64,000 nucleotides of DNA, taken from Clostridiales bacterium. GTDB taxonomy: Bacteria > Bacillota > Clostridia > Lachnospirales > Lachnospiraceae. This document shows, piece by piece, positions 9,715 to 23,228 of the stretch (within the stretch, counting starts at the first letter, position 1; each line of letters starts with the position of its first letter). The notes under the pieces were generated by a model. That model had not been told where the DNA came from, did no database searches, and saw only the letters and a program-made list of their open reading frames with translations. The DNA lies in contig JAAYNV010000040.1 of NCBI GenBank assembly GCA_012520645.1, positions 1 to 64,000 of the forward strand, given 5' to 3'. A program made the position numbers and the translations under genes.

Positions 9715-9950
9715 AATATGATATTGTATCGAAAGCAGGTTCAGGCAGTGGAAAACTGTCTGATTAAAAGGGAAACAGGTGAAAATCCTGTACGAACTCG
9801 TCACTGTAAGCGGGGAGTGCAAGGTCATAAATGTCACTGAGAAATTGGGAAGGCGACCTTGGATGTGGATACGCAAGTCAGGAGACCTGCCTGTGTAATG
9901 GAGTGGGATTCTATTCCACCGGCCACGAGTAACTGGTCGCAAACCGATAT
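9715..9950 (+). promoter_or_regulatory. Cobalamin riboswitch
   Basis: AAAAGGGAAACAGGTGAAAATCCTGTACGAACTCGTCACTGTAAGCGGGGAG; GGAAGGCGACC; B12 box AGTCAGGAGACCTGCCTG at 9876-9893. Confidence 0.93.
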
Positions 9951-13467: not shown

Positions 13468-14415
13468 ATGAAAAAAATATTGAAAGCAGCCGCACTGCTT
13501 GCCGGGGTGACGGCAGCTGCCAGTGCAGGAGGAACCGCCTATTTTTACCGCAGAACGATGAAGCGGTATAACGCCAAAGTAGAGCGGACCATGAAAATGT
13601 CAGGAACCGACTGGAACCAGTATATGCCTTTGATGGAAACGAGAAAGGCGTACATGTTAGAGCAGCCGCACGAGGATGTTTATATTACCTCTGAGGACGG
13701 ACTGAAGCTCCACGGGGTATATTTCCCGGGTAAGGCGGATGCGGATAAACTGGTCATCTGCTGTCATGGTTATACCAGTCATTGTATGAGCGATTACATA
13801 GGATTATCCGATTATTATTTAAAGCACGGCTTTCGTATGCTTTTAGTGGATGCGAGGGCACACGGGCAGAGTGAAGGAACCTATATCGGTTTTGGCTGTC
13901 CGGACCGGAGGGATGTGCTTGGATGGATACATTGGGTGATTGAAAACTGCGGAGAACGGATGCAGATTCTTTTGCATGGTACCTCCATGGGAGGGGCTAC
14001 TGTGCTGATGACAAGCGGGTTGGAATTGCCGGAACAGGTAAAAGGAATTGTTTCCGACTGTGGATTTACTTCTCCGAAATATGTATTTACTCATGTATTG
14101 CATACGATGTATCATCTTCCAGCGTTTCCGATGATTCCGATTGCAGATTATGTCAATCGAAAAAGAGCAGGATACGGACTGGATGAATGCAATGCGGCAC
14201 GCGAGGTAAAAAAAGCAAAAGTGCCGATTCTTCTGATCCACGGAGATAAGGATAATTTTGTACCGTGTCAGATGTGTGAGGAAATATATGAGAATTGTGC
14301 ATCCCCGAAGACGAAATTAATCGTAGCCGGAGCTGCCCATGCAGAGAGTTATTATAAAGATATGGCAGCTTATGAACAGGCATTGGATGACTTTACAGGA
14401 GGTGCTTTAAAATGA
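13468..14415 (+). CDS. Alpha/beta hydrolase
   Basis: HGYTSH..., DARAHGQSEGTYIGFG, LLHGTSMGGATVLM, PILLIHGDKDNFVP. Confidence 0.9.
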   Translation: MKKILKAAALLAGVTAAASAGGTAYFYRRTMKRYNAKVERTMKMSGTDWNQYMPLMETRKAYMLEQPHEDVYITSEDGLKLHGVYFPGKADADKLVICCHGYTSHCMSDYIGLSDYYLKHGFRMLLVDARAHGQSEGTYIGFGCPDRRDVLGWIHWVIENCGERMQILLHGTSMGGATVLMTSGLELPEQVKGIVSDCGFTSPKYVFTHVLHTMYHLPAFPMIPIADYVNRKRAGYGLDECNAAREVKKAKVPILLIHGDKDNFVPCQMCEEIYENCASPKTKLIVAGAAHAESYYKDMAAYEQALDDFTGGALK

Positions 14416-15818
14416 TGAAAACAAGAAAAGGATATCCGGTATATCCGCTCACGGCAGCCCAGAAATTTCACTTGTTCTATCAGGATTTCTGCCCCAAAAA
14501 GGAAGTCCTTAATATCGGAACCAGTCTGACCATCGGAGCGGATATCGACTGGGATGTTTTAAAGCAGTCCGTATACAAGGCGATTGAGCGCCGTGATTCC
14601 ATGCGTCTGCGTTTTGCCAGGGATAAAGATGGAAACTGGTATCAGTATGTAGTGGAGAAAGAAGAGAGAGACATCGAATTTGTGGATTTTTCCAATCAGT
14701 CCATGGAAGAAGCCGAGGCACAAATGCGCAAATGGACGCAGGTGCCGTTTAAACGGGAAGATTCACCGATGAACCGTGTAGTCATGATTAAGACCTCGGA
14801 CGGCTTCAACGGTCTGTATCTGCTGATCGATCATATGACAGCGGATGCCCAGTCATTGATTGGATTTTTAAAGGATGTCATTGAGCTTTATTGTCATACA
14901 AAGTTTGAAAATGTACCTTATCCGAAGGAGATGGCTTCCTATATTGAGCAGCTTCAGAAGGATTTGGAATACGAAGCAGGAAGCAAGGCAAAGGAGCGCG
15001 ACGAGAAGTTTTTCCAGGATTTAATCGATAACAGCACGGAACCGATCTACAATGGCATCAGGGGAACCGGACAGTTGGAGGCAGAAAGAGAAAGAACCGG
15101 AAATCCGAATGCCAGAGCCGCTATTAATGTTTCCGACTCGGTGGATTCGGCACTGGATATTTTCCATCTGGAGGAGGAACCGACAAAACGGCTGCTTGAT
15201 TTTTGTGAGAAATATCATGTATCGCTTGTATGTCTGCTGATTATGGGACTGCGGACTTATTTCCAGAAAATGAACGGAAATGATGATGTATCTATCAATA
15301 CGGCAATCGCCAGACGCGCTACATTAAAGGAAAAACGATCCGGTGGAACGAGAATCCATTCCTTCCCATTCCGTACGATTATTTCCGAAGACAAGACCTT
15401 TTTGGAAGGTATTTATGAGATTCGTGACCTGCAGAATACCTATTTCCGTCATGCTAACTACGATCCGGTACAGTATTTTGCTTACCGCGGACGCAAATAT
15501 CCGTACAAGAACGGTGAGACCTACGAGCCGATGTCACTGACCTATCAGCCGCTTACACTTCAGGCAAAGTCGCTGGATGATCTGGGTGGAATTAAGTATA
15601 AGACAAAATGGTATCCGAATGGGGCGACGACACAGGCTATGTACCTGACCGTTATGCACAGACCGGAGGACAACGGTCTTGATTTTAACTTTGAACATCA
15701 GGTGAAGGCAGTCAGCAGAGAAGATCTGGAGTACCTGTACTATTATCTTTGCAAGATTATGTTTAAGGGAACCGAAAATCCGAATCTGCCGATTGGTGAT
15801 ATTATTAAGTTGATTTAA
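14412..15818 (+). CDS. Condensation-like/acyltransferase superfamily protein
   Basis: YPLTAAQKFHLFYQDF; LLIDHMTADAQS (variant of HHxxxDG keeping the second His and the Asp). Confidence 0.7.
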   Translation: MMKTRKGYPVYPLTAAQKFHLFYQDFCPKKEVLNIGTSLTIGADIDWDVLKQSVYKAIERRDSMRLRFARDKDGNWYQYVVEKEERDIEFVDFSNQSMEEAEAQMRKWTQVPFKREDSPMNRVVMIKTSDGFNGLYLLIDHMTADAQSLIGFLKDVIELYCHTKFENVPYPKEMASYIEQLQKDLEYEAGSKAKERDEKFFQDLIDNSTEPIYNGIRGTGQLEAERERTGNPNARAAINVSDSVDSALDIFHLEEEPTKRLLDFCEKYHVSLVCLLIMGLRTYFQKMNGNDDVSINTAIARRATLKEKRSGGTRIHSFPFRTIISEDKTFLEGIYEIRDLQNTYFRHANYDPVQYFAYRGRKYPYKNGETYEPMSLTYQPLTLQAKSLDDLGGIKYKTKWYPNGATTQAMYLTVMHRPEDNGLDFNFEHQVKAVSREDLEYLYYYLCKIMFKGTENPNLPIGDIIKLI

Positions 15819-15848
15819 TGTTGGACTGCTATTAGGAGGAGAGAGGTC

Positions 15849-16082
15849 ATGTTTGATAGATTAGTTGGAATTATTGGCAATTATGTAGATGTTGAGCCGG
15901 AAAATATTCATCCGGAATCACGTTTTATGGAAGATCTGGGGTTTACCTCCTTTGATTTTATGAGCATGCTCGGAGAATTGGAGGATGAACTGGATGTGGA
16001 GATTGATGAACAGGAGGCTGTTAATATCCGTACGGTACAGGAAGCAGCTGACTATCTGGAAAAGCTTGCCAGTGAAGAGTAG
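15849..16082 (+). CDS. Acyl/peptidyl carrier protein
   Basis: MEDLGFTSFDFMSMLGELEDELDVEIDEQEAVNIRTVQEAADYL. Confidence 0.85.
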   Translation: MFDRLVGIIGNYVDVEPENIHPESRFMEDLGFTSFDFMSMLGELEDELDVEIDEQEAVNIRTVQEAADYLEKLASEE

Positions 16083-16093
16083 GAGGAACAAGA

Positions 16094-17602
16094 ATGCAGT
16101 GCAGTACGATTCGTGAGATTTTAGTATATGCAGCAGAAAAATTCGGCGATGGGGATGCCATTCGCTACAAGGTAAAAAAGGACGTGACAGAGTCCAAATC
16201 CTATACACAGCTTAAAGCAGACAGTGAGAGCTTCTCCAAAGTTCTGGAAGAACTGGGAGAGAACGGACATCATATTGCAGTTACCGGAATGACATCCTAT
16301 CCATGGCTTGTAACCTATTTTGGAACCGTAAACAGCGGAAGCGTGGCGGTGCCGTTGGATGTATCCCTGCCGGCAGAGGAAATGTGCGAACTGATTGACC
16401 GTGCGGATGTGACGGTATTTGTGTTTGATGAAATCCGTAAGGATGTTGCTGCAATCGTGAAGGAACGCTGTCCGAAGCTCAAATATCTGATTTCCATGCA
16501 GAAGGAGACCGGGGATGAGGAAAGTCTTTCCTTCTGGGAGCTTTTAAAAAAGCAGGACGGAAGCTATGCTTTTATGCCTCAGCCCGATAGTCTTTGTACG
16601 ATCATGTTTACTTCGGGAACGACCGGGAAGAGTAAGGGTGTTATGCTTACGCATAGAAATATGGCAGAAAATGCGACCTGTCTGGATATGAAGATTGCGG
16701 AAAGAACGGTCATTTTATCCGTGCTGCCAATCCATCATGCCTATTGTCTTAGCATGGATATCCTGAAGGGAATTTCGCTTGGAAGCATTATCTGTATCAA
16801 TGATTCCCTGTTACGTGTGGCAAAGAATATCAAGCTGTTTAAGCTGAATATGATTCTGATGGTACCGCTTATGATCGAGACGATGGCAAAAAAGCTGGAA
16901 GAGGCATCGCTTCTTCCCCCTAAAATTGTGAAGCATCAGGTATTTGGAGAGCAGTTCCATACGATCTGCAGTGGTGGCGCTTATTTGAATCCGGCATATA
17001 TCGACTTGTTTGCAAAGTATGGAATTACGATTTTGCAGGGGTACGGCATGACGGAATGTGCTCCGGTTATCAGCACGACAATAAGCTGGGATATCCGCAA
17101 GGATTCTGTCGGACAGCTTCTGCCAAACTGTGAGGCAAAGAGCGTGGACGGAGAGCTGTGGGTGCGCGGCAGCAGTGTCATGCAGGGATATTACAAGATG
17201 CCGGAGGAAACCGCTGAGGCATTACAGGACGGGTGGCTTAGAACCGGTGATCTGGGATACGTTGGCGAGGACAATTTTGTGTATCTGACCGGCAGGAAGA
17301 AGAATCTGATCATTACAAAGAACGGTGAGAATGTGTCTCCGGAAGAGCTGGAAAATAAGCTTGGAGAACAGCGTTTGGTACAGGAAATCCTGGTGCGTGA
17401 GAACGAAGGTGTGATCGAAGCGGAGATTTTCCCGGATTATGATTATGTAAAGAAAAAGCGAATCAAGGATATTCCGGGCGAGCTTCAGAAGGTGATTGAC
17501 GATTATAATAAGACAGCACCGGCATATAAAAAAATTTACAGCCTAAAGGTAAGAGAAACGGAATTCGAGAAGACACCATCTAAGAAGATAAAGCGGTATT
17601 AG
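16094..17602 (+). CDS. AMP-binding acyl-CoA/ACP synthetase-like ligase
   Basis: CTIMFTSGTTGKSKGVMLTHRNMAE; GYGMTECAPVIS; RTGDLGYVGED; C-terminal EKTPSKKIKRY. Confidence 0.93.
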   Translation: MQCSTIREILVYAAEKFGDGDAIRYKVKKDVTESKSYTQLKADSESFSKVLEELGENGHHIAVTGMTSYPWLVTYFGTVNSGSVAVPLDVSLPAEEMCELIDRADVTVFVFDEIRKDVAAIVKERCPKLKYLISMQKETGDEESLSFWELLKKQDGSYAFMPQPDSLCTIMFTSGTTGKSKGVMLTHRNMAENATCLDMKIAERTVILSVLPIHHAYCLSMDILKGISLGSIICINDSLLRVAKNIKLFKLNMILMVPLMIETMAKKLEEASLLPPKIVKHQVFGEQFHTICSGGAYLNPAYIDLFAKYGITILQGYGMTECAPVISTTISWDIRKDSVGQLLPNCEAKSVDGELWVRGSSVMQGYYKMPEETAEALQDGWLRTGDLGYVGEDNFVYLTGRKKNLIITKNGENVSPEELENKLGEQRLVQEILVRENEGVIEAEIFPDYDYVKKKRIKDIPGELQKVIDDYNKTAPAYKKIYSLKVRETEFEKTPSKKIKRY

Positions 17603-19815: not shown

Positions 19816-19843
19816 TTGACAAGCAGGATGCAGGTGTTATAAT
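19816..19843 (+). promoter_or_regulatory. Sigma-A promoter
   Basis: TTGACA-16-TATAAT. Confidence 0.8.
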
Positions 19844-19913
19844 TGTTTGACAATAAGAGCTTTGGAATAGAAATATGTCACTTCTCAGGAAGTGATATAT
19901 TTTTACAATTGGA

Positions 19914-19940
19914 TTAGCACTCAGCAAGAGAGAGTGCTAA
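19914..19940 (+). promoter_or_regulatory. CIRCE (HrcA operator)
   Basis: TTAGCACTC-N9-GAGTGCTAA, exact match to consensus. Confidence 0.93.
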
Positions 19941-19959
19941 CAAAAAGGAGGTTGTTAAT

Positions 19960-20469
19960 TTGAAAACGGATAATGAAATGGAGAGCCTGATCAATGAACT
20001 GACATACCATCGATACCTGATGAATAAGGGAGCTATCCGTGAGTGTTTTCGGAATATGAGTATTCCGGAATACATAGCCCTGCACAGTATTGCGGTAAAC
20101 AACGAAACATCAGTGATTTATGAAGGCAGGACTTACCTAAAGGATTTATCGGAGAAAATGAGGCTGACGATCCGACAGACATCTAAAATGGTGGGCGAAT
20201 TAAAGGAACGGGGACTGTTACTCTGGTCTCATGATGGCAACGGAAGTGAAGGAACCTATGTGACGATTACGGAAAACGGAAAGAACAAGTTAAAGGAGCA
20301 GGAAGCTGTTCTGAAAGAGTTTTACGGTAAGGTAATTTGCAAATTCGGAACAGAGAACCTCATTCAGCTGCTCCGGCTTATGAAGCAGTTGGAAACGGTA
20401 ATGAGCAGCACAATGGAAGAAATGGAGGACGGCAATGGAGAAAATGGGACCGAAGGATATGATGAATAG
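19960..20469 (+). CDS. MarR-like winged-helix regulator
   Basis: YLKDLSEKMRLTIRQTSKMVGELKERGLLLWSHDGNGSEGTYVTITENGKNKL; TTG start with aaggagg RBS. Confidence 0.7.
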   Translation: MKTDNEMESLINELTYHRYLMNKGAIRECFRNMSIPEYIALHSIAVNNETSVIYEGRTYLKDLSEKMRLTIRQTSKMVGELKERGLLLWSHDGNGSEGTYVTITENGKNKLKEQEAVLKEFYGKVICKFGTENLIQLLRLMKQLETVMSSTMEEMEDGNGENGTEGYDE

Positions 20470-21796
20470 CTATGTACAAAAAAAGGAGGAGGTCTGTCGT
20501 AAAAACGACAACATTGCCTCCCGGTTATATGAGGAATATGGAGTTAACAGAGGGCTTCGTGATGACAAGGGGAACGGAGTTTTGACCGGACTGACGAAAA
20601 TATCCAAAATAGTATCCTCGCGGATTGTGGATGGGAAAAAGATGCCCTGTGACGGTGAGCTGTGGTATAGAGGCTATCGGGTAGAGGAACTGATTGGAAG
20701 TCTTGGACCGGAGGAAATGGGGTTTGAAAAAATTGCGTATCTGCTTTTAATGGGAGAACTTCCGTCTGTCGAAGAGGAAAAGGCATTCCGGGAGGTGATT
20801 GGAAGCTGTCGAATGCTGCCGGCGAATTTCACAAGAGATGTGATTATGAAAGCACCGTCCGAAGACATTATGAATTCCATGACCAGAAGTATTTTGACGC
20901 TTGCATCCTATGATAATCAAGCAAAGGATACCAGTGTCAGCAATTCGCTCAGGCAGTGTATCCAGCTGATCAGCGAGTTCCCATTATTAGCGGTATATGG
21001 CTATAATGCTTATAATCATTATGAAAAGAATCAAAGTATGTTTATCCATAATCCGAATCCGAATCTGTCTACGGCAGAAAACCTGCTCATGCTGTTAAGA
21101 CCTAATCAGAAGTATTCTGCCGTGGAGGCAAAGGTGTTGGATACGGCATTGATTCTGCATATGGAGCATGGAGGAGGCAATAATTCTACCTTTACGACAA
21201 GGGTTGTTACGTCTTCCGGTTCGGATACCTACTCGACGATGGCGGCAGCCATGTGTTCATTAAAGGGACCAAAACATGGTGGTGCAAATATCAAAGTGAT
21301 GGAAATGATGGAGAATATCAGGGAACATGTAAAGGATTATGCGGATGAGGAGGAAGTGGAAAGCTATCTGACCAGGATCATAGAGAAACAGGCATTTGAT
21401 CAAAAGGGACTGATTTATGGAATGGGACATGCGGTGTATTCGTTATCTGACCCAAGAGAGAGGGTCTTTAAGCAGTATGTCAGGGAACTGGCGGCGGAAA
21501 AGGGCAGGGAAGCAGATCTGCTGCTCTATGAAAATATCGAAAAGCTGGCGCCGAAGCTGATTGCGGAAAAGAGACAGAGCTTAAAGGGAGTTAGCCCGAA
21601 CGTGGATTTTTACAGTGGATTTGTCTACGATATGCTCGGCATTCCGCAGGAATTATATACTGCCATCTTTGCTGTGGCAAGAATTGTCGGATGGAGCGCG
21701 CACCGCATCGAGGAGCTGATTTGCACGGACAAGATCATACGTCCGGCTTATATGAGCGTTATGGAGGAAAAAAACCTTTCTTTCTGCGAAAGTTAA
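20459..21796 (+). CDS. Citrate/2-methylcitrate synthase family
   Basis: HMEHGGGNNSTFTTRVVTSSGSDTYSTMAAAMCSLKGPKHGGAN; GMGHAVYSLSDPR. Confidence 0.93.
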   Translation: MMNSYVQKKEEVCRKNDNIASRLYEEYGVNRGLRDDKGNGVLTGLTKISKIVSSRIVDGKKMPCDGELWYRGYRVEELIGSLGPEEMGFEKIAYLLLMGELPSVEEEKAFREVIGSCRMLPANFTRDVIMKAPSEDIMNSMTRSILTLASYDNQAKDTSVSNSLRQCIQLISEFPLLAVYGYNAYNHYEKNQSMFIHNPNPNLSTAENLLMLLRPNQKYSAVEAKVLDTALILHMEHGGGNNSTFTTRVVTSSGSDTYSTMAAAMCSLKGPKHGGANIKVMEMMENIREHVKDYADEEEVESYLTRIIEKQAFDQKGLIYGMGHAVYSLSDPRERVFKQYVRELAAEKGREADLLLYENIEKLAPKLIAEKRQSLKGVSPNVDFYSGFVYDMLGIPQELYTAIFAVARIVGWSAHRIEELICTDKIIRPAYMSVMEEKNLSFCES

Positions 21797-21845: not shown

Positions 21846-23228
21846 ATGCATATATTTATATCGCATTCCTCAAAGGATGCAGAAACTGCCATGCAGGTAT
21901 GCAGATTGCTGGAGGAGCACGGAAAACCATGTTTTATCGCACCCAGAGATATCCGAATGGGAAAAGAGTATGCAGCAGAAATCGTGGATGGGATTGACCA
22001 TGCACAGGCGGTAGTGCTGTTAATGTCCAGAGCGGCAAACCAGTCCCCGCATGTACTGCGTGAGGTAGAGCGTGCCGTAAGCAAGTCCATTCCGATTCTG
22101 GTATGTAAACTGGAAGAGGTGGAACTGTCAAAGTCCATGGAGTATTTCCTGATGGCACATCAGTGGGTTTGTGACGGGACGGGAGAGGACGACTCAAAAA
22201 TACTGGCGATTCTTCGTGATTTTGAAAAGCAAAAAGAGCAGAAGGCAATACCGGAGCAGAAGATACCGAATCAGAAAATTCCGAATCAGAAAGTTCCGAA
22301 TAGAATCGGTCGGGGGATTCCTGCAAAAAGACGGCTTCAAAAGGCTGCGGTTATGCTGCTCCTTATCATCTTGCTTGCGGTCGGTCTGGGAGCCTGTTAT
22401 TTTGCCAAAACAGGAAGGGTGCAGACAGCCGGAGATATTGCGCTTAAAGAGGGGGATACCGTAGTGTTTGGAAGTTATAACGGTGAGCCCATCAGCTGGC
22501 GGGTACTGAAAGTGAATGAAGATCAGAAAAGTGCGGTTCTGGTAGCAAAGCATGTTCTTACGATGAAGGCTTTTGATGCGGCAGAAAGTGGTAGCTATAA
22601 CAGGGATGATACCAAGGATTACTGGGGGCAGCAGACAGAGGCGGATACGGACTTGAAGTTGCAGGCGTATGTTCGGGGAAGCAGTGAATGGAGAACCTCC
22701 AATATCAGAACCTGGCTGAATTCAGAGGATGAGGTTGTTGCATATACGGATCAGCCGCCTAAGAAAACTGCCATGGCAGAGCATAAAAACGGTTATGAGC
22801 ATGAGACGGGATTTCTGTATGATTTTACGGAAGCAGAACGTGCGGCGTTATTGGAAACGGAAATTGTGACAAGGGGAAATGCAGTGGCAGAGAGTGAAAC
22901 GATTACCACACAGGACCGGGTTTATCTGCTGTCCAGAGAAGAATTAAAATGGTTTGAGGAAGCCGGCATGAACCAGCTTGCCCTGCCGACAGAGGTAGCT
23001 GTAACACAGGATGAGAGCGGCTGGTATGCTTTGGAATTGAAGGAATATGGAATCAAGGAATGCAGCTGGTGGTTAAGAGATCCGGTGGAGAACGCTTCAA
23101 GTCTTTGCTATATGGTAGGAAATGGGTATGCAGATAATAATATATGGGAACGGAATGCAGGACTGGAGGGCTTTGGCATCCGTCCGGCGGTCACGGTGGA
23201 TTTGAGCGCAGGATGTCTACAGGAGTAG
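21846..23228 (+). CDS. TIR domain - TM helix - DUF6273-like domain protein
   Basis: MHIFISHSSKDAETAMQVCRLLEEHGKPCFIAPRDIRMG...; TM VMLLLIILLAVGLGACYF; C-terminal WRTSNIRTWLNSE...WWLRDP...GIRPAVTVDL. Confidence 0.85.
   Translation: MHIFISHSSKDAETAMQVCRLLEEHGKPCFIAPRDIRMGKEYAAEIVDGIDHAQAVVLLMSRAANQSPHVLREVERAVSKSIPILVCKLEEVELSKSMEYFLMAHQWVCDGTGEDDSKILAILRDFEKQKEQKAIPEQKIPNQKIPNQKVPNRIGRGIPAKRRLQKAAVMLLLIILLAVGLGACYFAKTGRVQTAGDIALKEGDTVVFGSYNGEPISWRVLKVNEDQKSAVLVAKHVLTMKAFDAAESGSYNRDDTKDYWGQQTEADTDLKLQAYVRGSSEWRTSNIRTWLNSEDEVVAYTDQPPKKTAMAEHKNGYEHETGFLYDFTEAERAALLETEIVTRGNAVAESETITTQDRVYLLSREELKWFEEAGMNQLALPTEVAVTQDESGWYALELKEYGIKECSWWLRDPVENASSLCYMVGNGYADNNIWERNAGLEGFGIRPAVTVDLSAGCLQE
22248..22304 (+). 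repeat. 15-bp tandem repeat encoding (I/V)P(E/N)QK linker
   Basis: ATACCGGAGCAGAAG ATACCGAATCAGAAA ATTCCGAATCAGAAA GTTCCGAATAGA. Confidence 0.9.

Follow-up and report, generated by a model that had tools for sequence, protein, structure and literature searches.

The HrcA/CIRCE system controls the class I heat-shock regulon of Firmicutes, made up of the groE and dnaK operons. To our knowledge, HrcA regulons consist almost entirely of chaperones and proteases. HrcA binds CIRCE, needs GroEL, and is released once non-native proteins make GroEL unavailable (PMC3842655, PMC8762339). In delta-proteobacteria, groESL is the only constant member of the regulon (PMC545781). Few non-chaperone targets have been published: rpoH in Geobacter sulfurreducens (PMC545781) and genes predicted to lie behind CIRCE in L. 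plantarum (PMC3842655) and in Chlamydia (PMC8762339), none of them a citrate synthase. Besides this regulon, duplicate type I chaperonins are found in Actinobacteria, Chlamydia, Rhizobia, and Myxococcus, where loss of the GGM tail is tied to new functions (PMC5904260); the chlamydial groEL2 and groEL3 are devoid of CIRCE (PMC8762339). Autogenous MarR-family operons and leader attenuators with an intrinsic terminator are two further systems to which the present locus can be compared.

The window, that is, the whole 64-kb stretch of DNA analysed here, carries a CIRCE in the leader of two genes encoding a MarR-like regulator (HTH2) and a second citrate synthase (CS2). We consider it likely that this marR-CS2 leader contains a genuine HrcA operator, derepressed under protein damage, together with a site for the MarR-like protein acting as second repressor and a hairpin terminator. 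A literature search, largely confined to journals outside subscription, returned no earlier report of the marR-CS2 operon or of its leader. The features of the locus are as follows.

19816-19843, + strand: sigma-A type promoter, TTGACA-16-TATAAT, 12/12 match, with TG before the -10 box
19844-19874, + strand: putative binding site for the MarR-like protein, a degenerate tandem operator with its repeats at +1 and +16 relative to the end of the -10 box
19875-19904, + strand: terminator-like hairpin, from covariation and folding energy (stem 19875-19884 with 19889-19898, loop 19885-19888), followed by a T-run (19900-19904)
19914-19940, + strand: CIRCE, putative HrcA operator, exact consensus kept in orthologous loci
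19945-19951, + strand: Shine-Dalgarno sequence AAGGAGG, from sequence reading, 8 nt before the TTG start
19960-20469, + strand: HTH2, transcriptional regulator of predicted MarR fold, 169 aa, TTG start at 19960, from AlphaFold and PDB matches
20435-21796, + strand: CS2, second citrate synthase, 453 aa (Pfam PF00285, E 3e-116; PRK14032)
21846-23228, directly 3' of CS2: protein combining TIR_2, a transmembrane segment, and DUF6273 at its C-terminus

The CIRCE reads TTAGCACTC-AGCAAGAGA-GAGTGCTAA over 27 bp, with 18 of 18 arm bases matching the consensus, and lies between the promoter and the Shine-Dalgarno sequence. Both the operator, TTAGCACTC-N9-GAGTGCTAA, and its placement are thus those of the class I regulon. 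The differences concern the targets, here a MarR-like regulator and a second citrate synthase, and the leader, which adds a covarying hairpin with a U-run and a MarR-type operator. A scan of the window genome (2.7 Mb, 72 contigs, 88% complete) with up to three mismatches, a check proposed in the sequence-only reading, finds five CIRCEs, at groES-groEL, hrcA-grpE, htpG, hsp20, and marR-CS2, and no match to a reversed control pattern. Hence, hrcA and its canonical targets co-occur with the marR-CS2 CIRCE in the same genome, and the marR-CS2 unit would belong to the HrcA/CIRCE regulon by every sequence test. That earlier reading had also announced an exact CIRCE, a good promoter, and a MarR-like gene: the first has no mismatch, the second holds as a pattern, and the third agrees with the structural model described below. 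Elsewhere in the family, the genes identified behind CIRCE were for the most part htpG, hrcA, groES, hsp20, and lon; all belong to proteostasis, so that citrate synthase stands out. Three further Lachnospiraceae loci have a CIRCE 5' of Lon-type AAA proteins (L144, L145, L157), with a Lon substrate-binding domain detected in L145 and L157.

In the mechanism that we propose, GroEL would keep HrcA active in the unstressed cell, and HrcA bound to CIRCE, about 65 bp past the transcription start, would block marR-CS2. This position counts against the model, since in the best-characterized examples CIRCE lies closer to the start. Unfolded proteins occupying GroEL would then render HrcA inactive and allow marR-CS2 expression. 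The MarR-like protein would act as an autogenous second repressor at the operator beside the start site. The hairpin and U-run before CIRCE most likely form an intrinsic terminator, which would be strengthened by HrcA stalling the polymerase on the U-run. CS2 may thereby represent a stress-time supply of enzyme, produced alongside the folding machinery upon protein unfolding, which would either replace damaged enzyme or raise flux into glutamate.

The 5' part of the leader points to the second repressor. A promoter with a 16-bp spacer also stands 5' of CIRCE in most related leaders. Immediately 3' of the -10 box, relatives carry a tandem, AT-rich palindrome, GTTTAAAATTAAAC or GTTTGGAAACAAAC, found at the fixed +16 register in 12 of the 15 loci that also contain a second chaperonin operon, groESL2 (type A, see below), and practically never in shuffles. 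Several HTH2-CS2 loci lacking both CIRCE and groESL2 also have the palindrome at their promoter, which makes it a probable operator of HTH2. The window copy matches at merely 9 of 14 positions, and the site is degenerate in the window's genus too, which speaks against this part of the model. As for HTH2 itself, Pfam gives nothing above threshold and sequence profiles are marginal. Its AlphaFold model (pLDDT 78) has as best PDB matches in Foldseek only MarR proteins (NMB1585, MftR, MexR; E 3e-7 for the strongest, TM normalized by target at most 0.76), so that a MarR winged-helix fold is predicted; identity with orthologues is 42-69%. The MarR fold, the regulator preceding an enzyme gene, and the relatives' palindrome at the transcription start all recall autogenous MarR-family operons. 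In contrast with these, HrcA control and a hairpin in the leader would come in addition here, and the window operator is degenerate.

In the window the hairpin has a folding energy of -17 kcal/mol (z = -6.75), and compensatory changes affect 9 of its 10 pairs among 28 aligned leaders. The whole leader structure yields 50 two-sided covariation cells, all within the hairpin helix, vs. 18.4 in shuffles, none of 500 reaching as high. The CIRCE arms are conserved as sequence, with no compensatory change in the same 28 leaders. Apart from CIRCE, the T-run is the best-preserved part of the leader (0.97-1.0 identity per column). The alignment of the 28 leaders reveals a common order: TTGACA-16-TATAAT, palindrome, hairpin and T-run, 8-10 nt, CIRCE. 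The distance from promoter to T-run varies from 47 to 105 nt, and that from T-run to CIRCE is 9.1 nt on average (SD 0.5) with an unconserved sequence; since few indels are expected anyway in any 9-nt stretch, the constancy of this gap is merely suggestive.

The stem directly adjoined by a U-run is the layout of an intrinsic terminator, for which a role in termination is predicted from the leader sequence. As the hairpin and U-run end 9 nt 5' of the operator, HrcA would halt the polymerase approximately on the U-run, where it would terminate. The layout thus suggests a repressor acting via termination. A covarying stem followed by a T-run between the promoter and the first gene is also what characterizes leader attenuators. 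Unlike these, the roughly 55-nt leader has no antiterminator or ligand-binding domain that we could find, an Rfam search of it gave no meaningful match to a known riboswitch or RNA family, and the structure stands at a fixed distance from a repressor site. Alternatively, the hairpin may be an mRNA-stabilizing or folding element, HrcA simply blocking at CIRCE. This is possible, though we do not regard it as probable. CIRCE stem-loops are reported to influence mRNA stability, the CIRCE of the window itself folds in mRNA (-11.7 kcal/mol), the stems are AU-rich, and we found no partner antiterminator; however, the T-run, so strongly kept, would be superfluous for a stabilizing stem.

A second promoter considered at 19882-19909 was dropped: what relatives preserve there is the T-run, not its -10 box. 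Model R1, when run across the family, mostly returns, at scores under some 50 bits, CIRCE accompanied by a chance stem (htpG, hrcA, lon, groES) and therefore provides no genome-wide census. Because R1 was built from sequences that it later recovered, only these low CIRCE-only scores and the match in genome G162, which is outside the alignment and precedes an HTH2 gene, are informative.

CS2 contains the HGGAN, GHxVY, and NVDFYSG regions, which align with solved enzymes; the catalytic motifs are present, and oxaloacetate, rather than another 2-oxo acid, is the presumed substrate. The window genome has another citrate synthase, 57% identical to CS2. The idea that CIRCE regulates the housekeeping citrate synthase was rejected because CS2 is a paralogue, while no CIRCE lies close to the other gene.

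We surveyed 80 citrate synthase loci across public genomes, many of the relatives being metagenome assemblies. Nearly all CIRCE cases fall in one 44-row clade of the citrate synthase tree; the trees, computed rapidly and weakly supported at many branches, do not fix the direction of gene-order change. Two arrangements carry CIRCE. Type A (15 loci, among them those of Roseburia porci, Oliverpabstia intestinalis, and Fusibacillus kribbianus) has the order CIRCE-groES2-groEL2-HTH2-CS2. Type B has CIRCE-HTH2-CS2 and comprises 14 loci, namely the window, 12 others, and G001, the one same-genus genome covered, in which a perfect CIRCE precedes the same MarR-like gene and CS2. The element is thus present in orthologous loci of both kinds, the conservation that the sequence-only reading had proposed to look for. 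Remoter loci have HTH2-CS2 without CIRCE, or a lone CS2. In relatives, CIRCE and CS2 are separated by 2.5 kb that were first guessed to encode aconitase; Pfam gives Cpn10 and Cpn60.

Some variations accompany these arrangements. A second MarR-like gene of about 145 aa, HTH1, lies directly 5' of the groESL2 leader in L010 (1801-2238), L131, L132, L133, and L136, and some loci without CIRCE (L017, L019, L048, L049, L057, L062) have HTH1 and HTH2 as a tandem pair 5' of CS2. In L034, L036, L037, and L042, a terminator-like hairpin (for example GGGAAGTGACAGTCTGTTGCTTCCCTTATTTT) between groEL2 and HTH2 suggests partial read-through into HTH2-CS2. L021 has a second perfect CIRCE at about 2880-2906, just 3' of CS2 and before a 147-aa ORF; the latter, possibly hsp20, clusters with the ORF that L024 and L029 have in divergent orientation to an additional CIRCE.

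The genes associated with CS2 in type A loci constitute a second chaperonin. Among the 32 genomes covered by a GroEL search, type A genomes hold two groEL genes. Identity to the groEL of the window genome is mostly 83-95% for the main copy and about 70-75% for the operon copy. The operon copies form a single branch (SH-aLRT 99) and end in PDMGY, PEMY, or alike, without a GGM tail. In their divergence and their missing tail they resemble the duplicate chaperonins described above, from which groESL2 differs by its cognate groES, its own CIRCE, and its operon with citrate synthase. Five type B genomes have groEL2 on another contig, likewise behind CIRCE, so that groESL2 and HTH2-CS2 are separate with CIRCE at both loci; another small HTH gene precedes the separate groESL2 in four of the five. 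A single groEL was found in the window genome, which is 88% complete, and in those of L006, L007, L021, L022, and L028. Since the L006 genome (G231 in the survey) is 99% complete, the loss of groESL2 is real there, and it is likely in the window genome. The absence of chaperones from the window locus thus looks lineage-specific, CS2, the regulator, and CIRCE having apparently been retained when groESL2 was lost. The events may have begun with insertion of groESL2 between two HTH genes, followed by loss or separation.

Chaperonins are routinely assayed in the laboratory with citrate synthase as substrate (PMC5406781, PMC5019054), so that a natural operon of groESL2 and citrate synthase makes the question of a dedicated client testable. 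That an undescribed regulatory module of Lachnospiraceae couples groESL2 to CS2 as such a client, through a three-part leader where CIRCE-bound HrcA works by forced termination on the U-run of the hairpin and the MarR-like protein adds a metabolic signal, is in our opinion a rather unlikely version of the scheme.

The homology of the groESL2 and HTH2-CS2 leaders also raises the question of whether CIRCE is a relic, left functionless for citrate synthase after groESL2 was deleted or moved away. The window genome has no groEL2, and the CIRCEs of two type B loci, L006 and L031, are decaying, with three mismatches each. In contrast, the arms are kept equally well with or without groESL2: mean mismatches are 1.07 in type B vs. 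1.40 in type A (p = 0.38). Likewise, identity per column is 0.931 in type B vs. 0.927 in type A plus the separate groESL2 loci, the 10 columns 5' of CIRCE being at about 0.54. Moreover, two genomes of the window's genus have perfect copies despite differing leader sequences, and genomes with separate loci retain CIRCE at both. Because the arms are undecayed without groESL2 and CIRCE persists at both separate loci, we read HTH2-CS2 itself as being under selection for HrcA control, and a relic appears improbable. A CIRCE kept before a central metabolic enzyme, even without a chaperonin neighbour, would tie proteostasis to carbon flux in common gut anaerobes. The sequence-only reading had placed the whole operon, TIR gene included, under HrcA control in a setting free of chaperones. 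The sequence half of this claim stands, CIRCE being present and constrained in orthologous loci; the setting is free of chaperones in the window but not in many orthologous loci, where groES2-groEL2 occur.

Inclusion of the TIR-DUF6273 gene in the CIRCE operon would place a defence-like gene under proteotoxic stress control. Only 50 bp, devoid of any terminator-like site, separate its start from CS2, so that read-through from CS2 would be possible. However, no examined relative has a TIR gene behind CS2 and the matches of the protein to Thoeris models are weak; we therefore hold its membership in the CIRCE-controlled unit to be very improbable. Finally, a chance palindrome resembling CIRCE, favoured by nothing except the odd neighbour genes, can be set aside, the element being the sole match in the 64 kb even with three mismatches permitted, against 0.01 expected per shuffled window, absent in reversed form from the genome, and conserved in relatives.

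Elsewhere, the window contains a cobalamin riboswitch at 9720-9908 (Rfam RF00174, 104 bits) and, at 14412-17602, a small NRPS-like set made up of a Condensation-domain protein, an acyl-carrier-like protein (15849-16082), and an AMP-binding enzyme.
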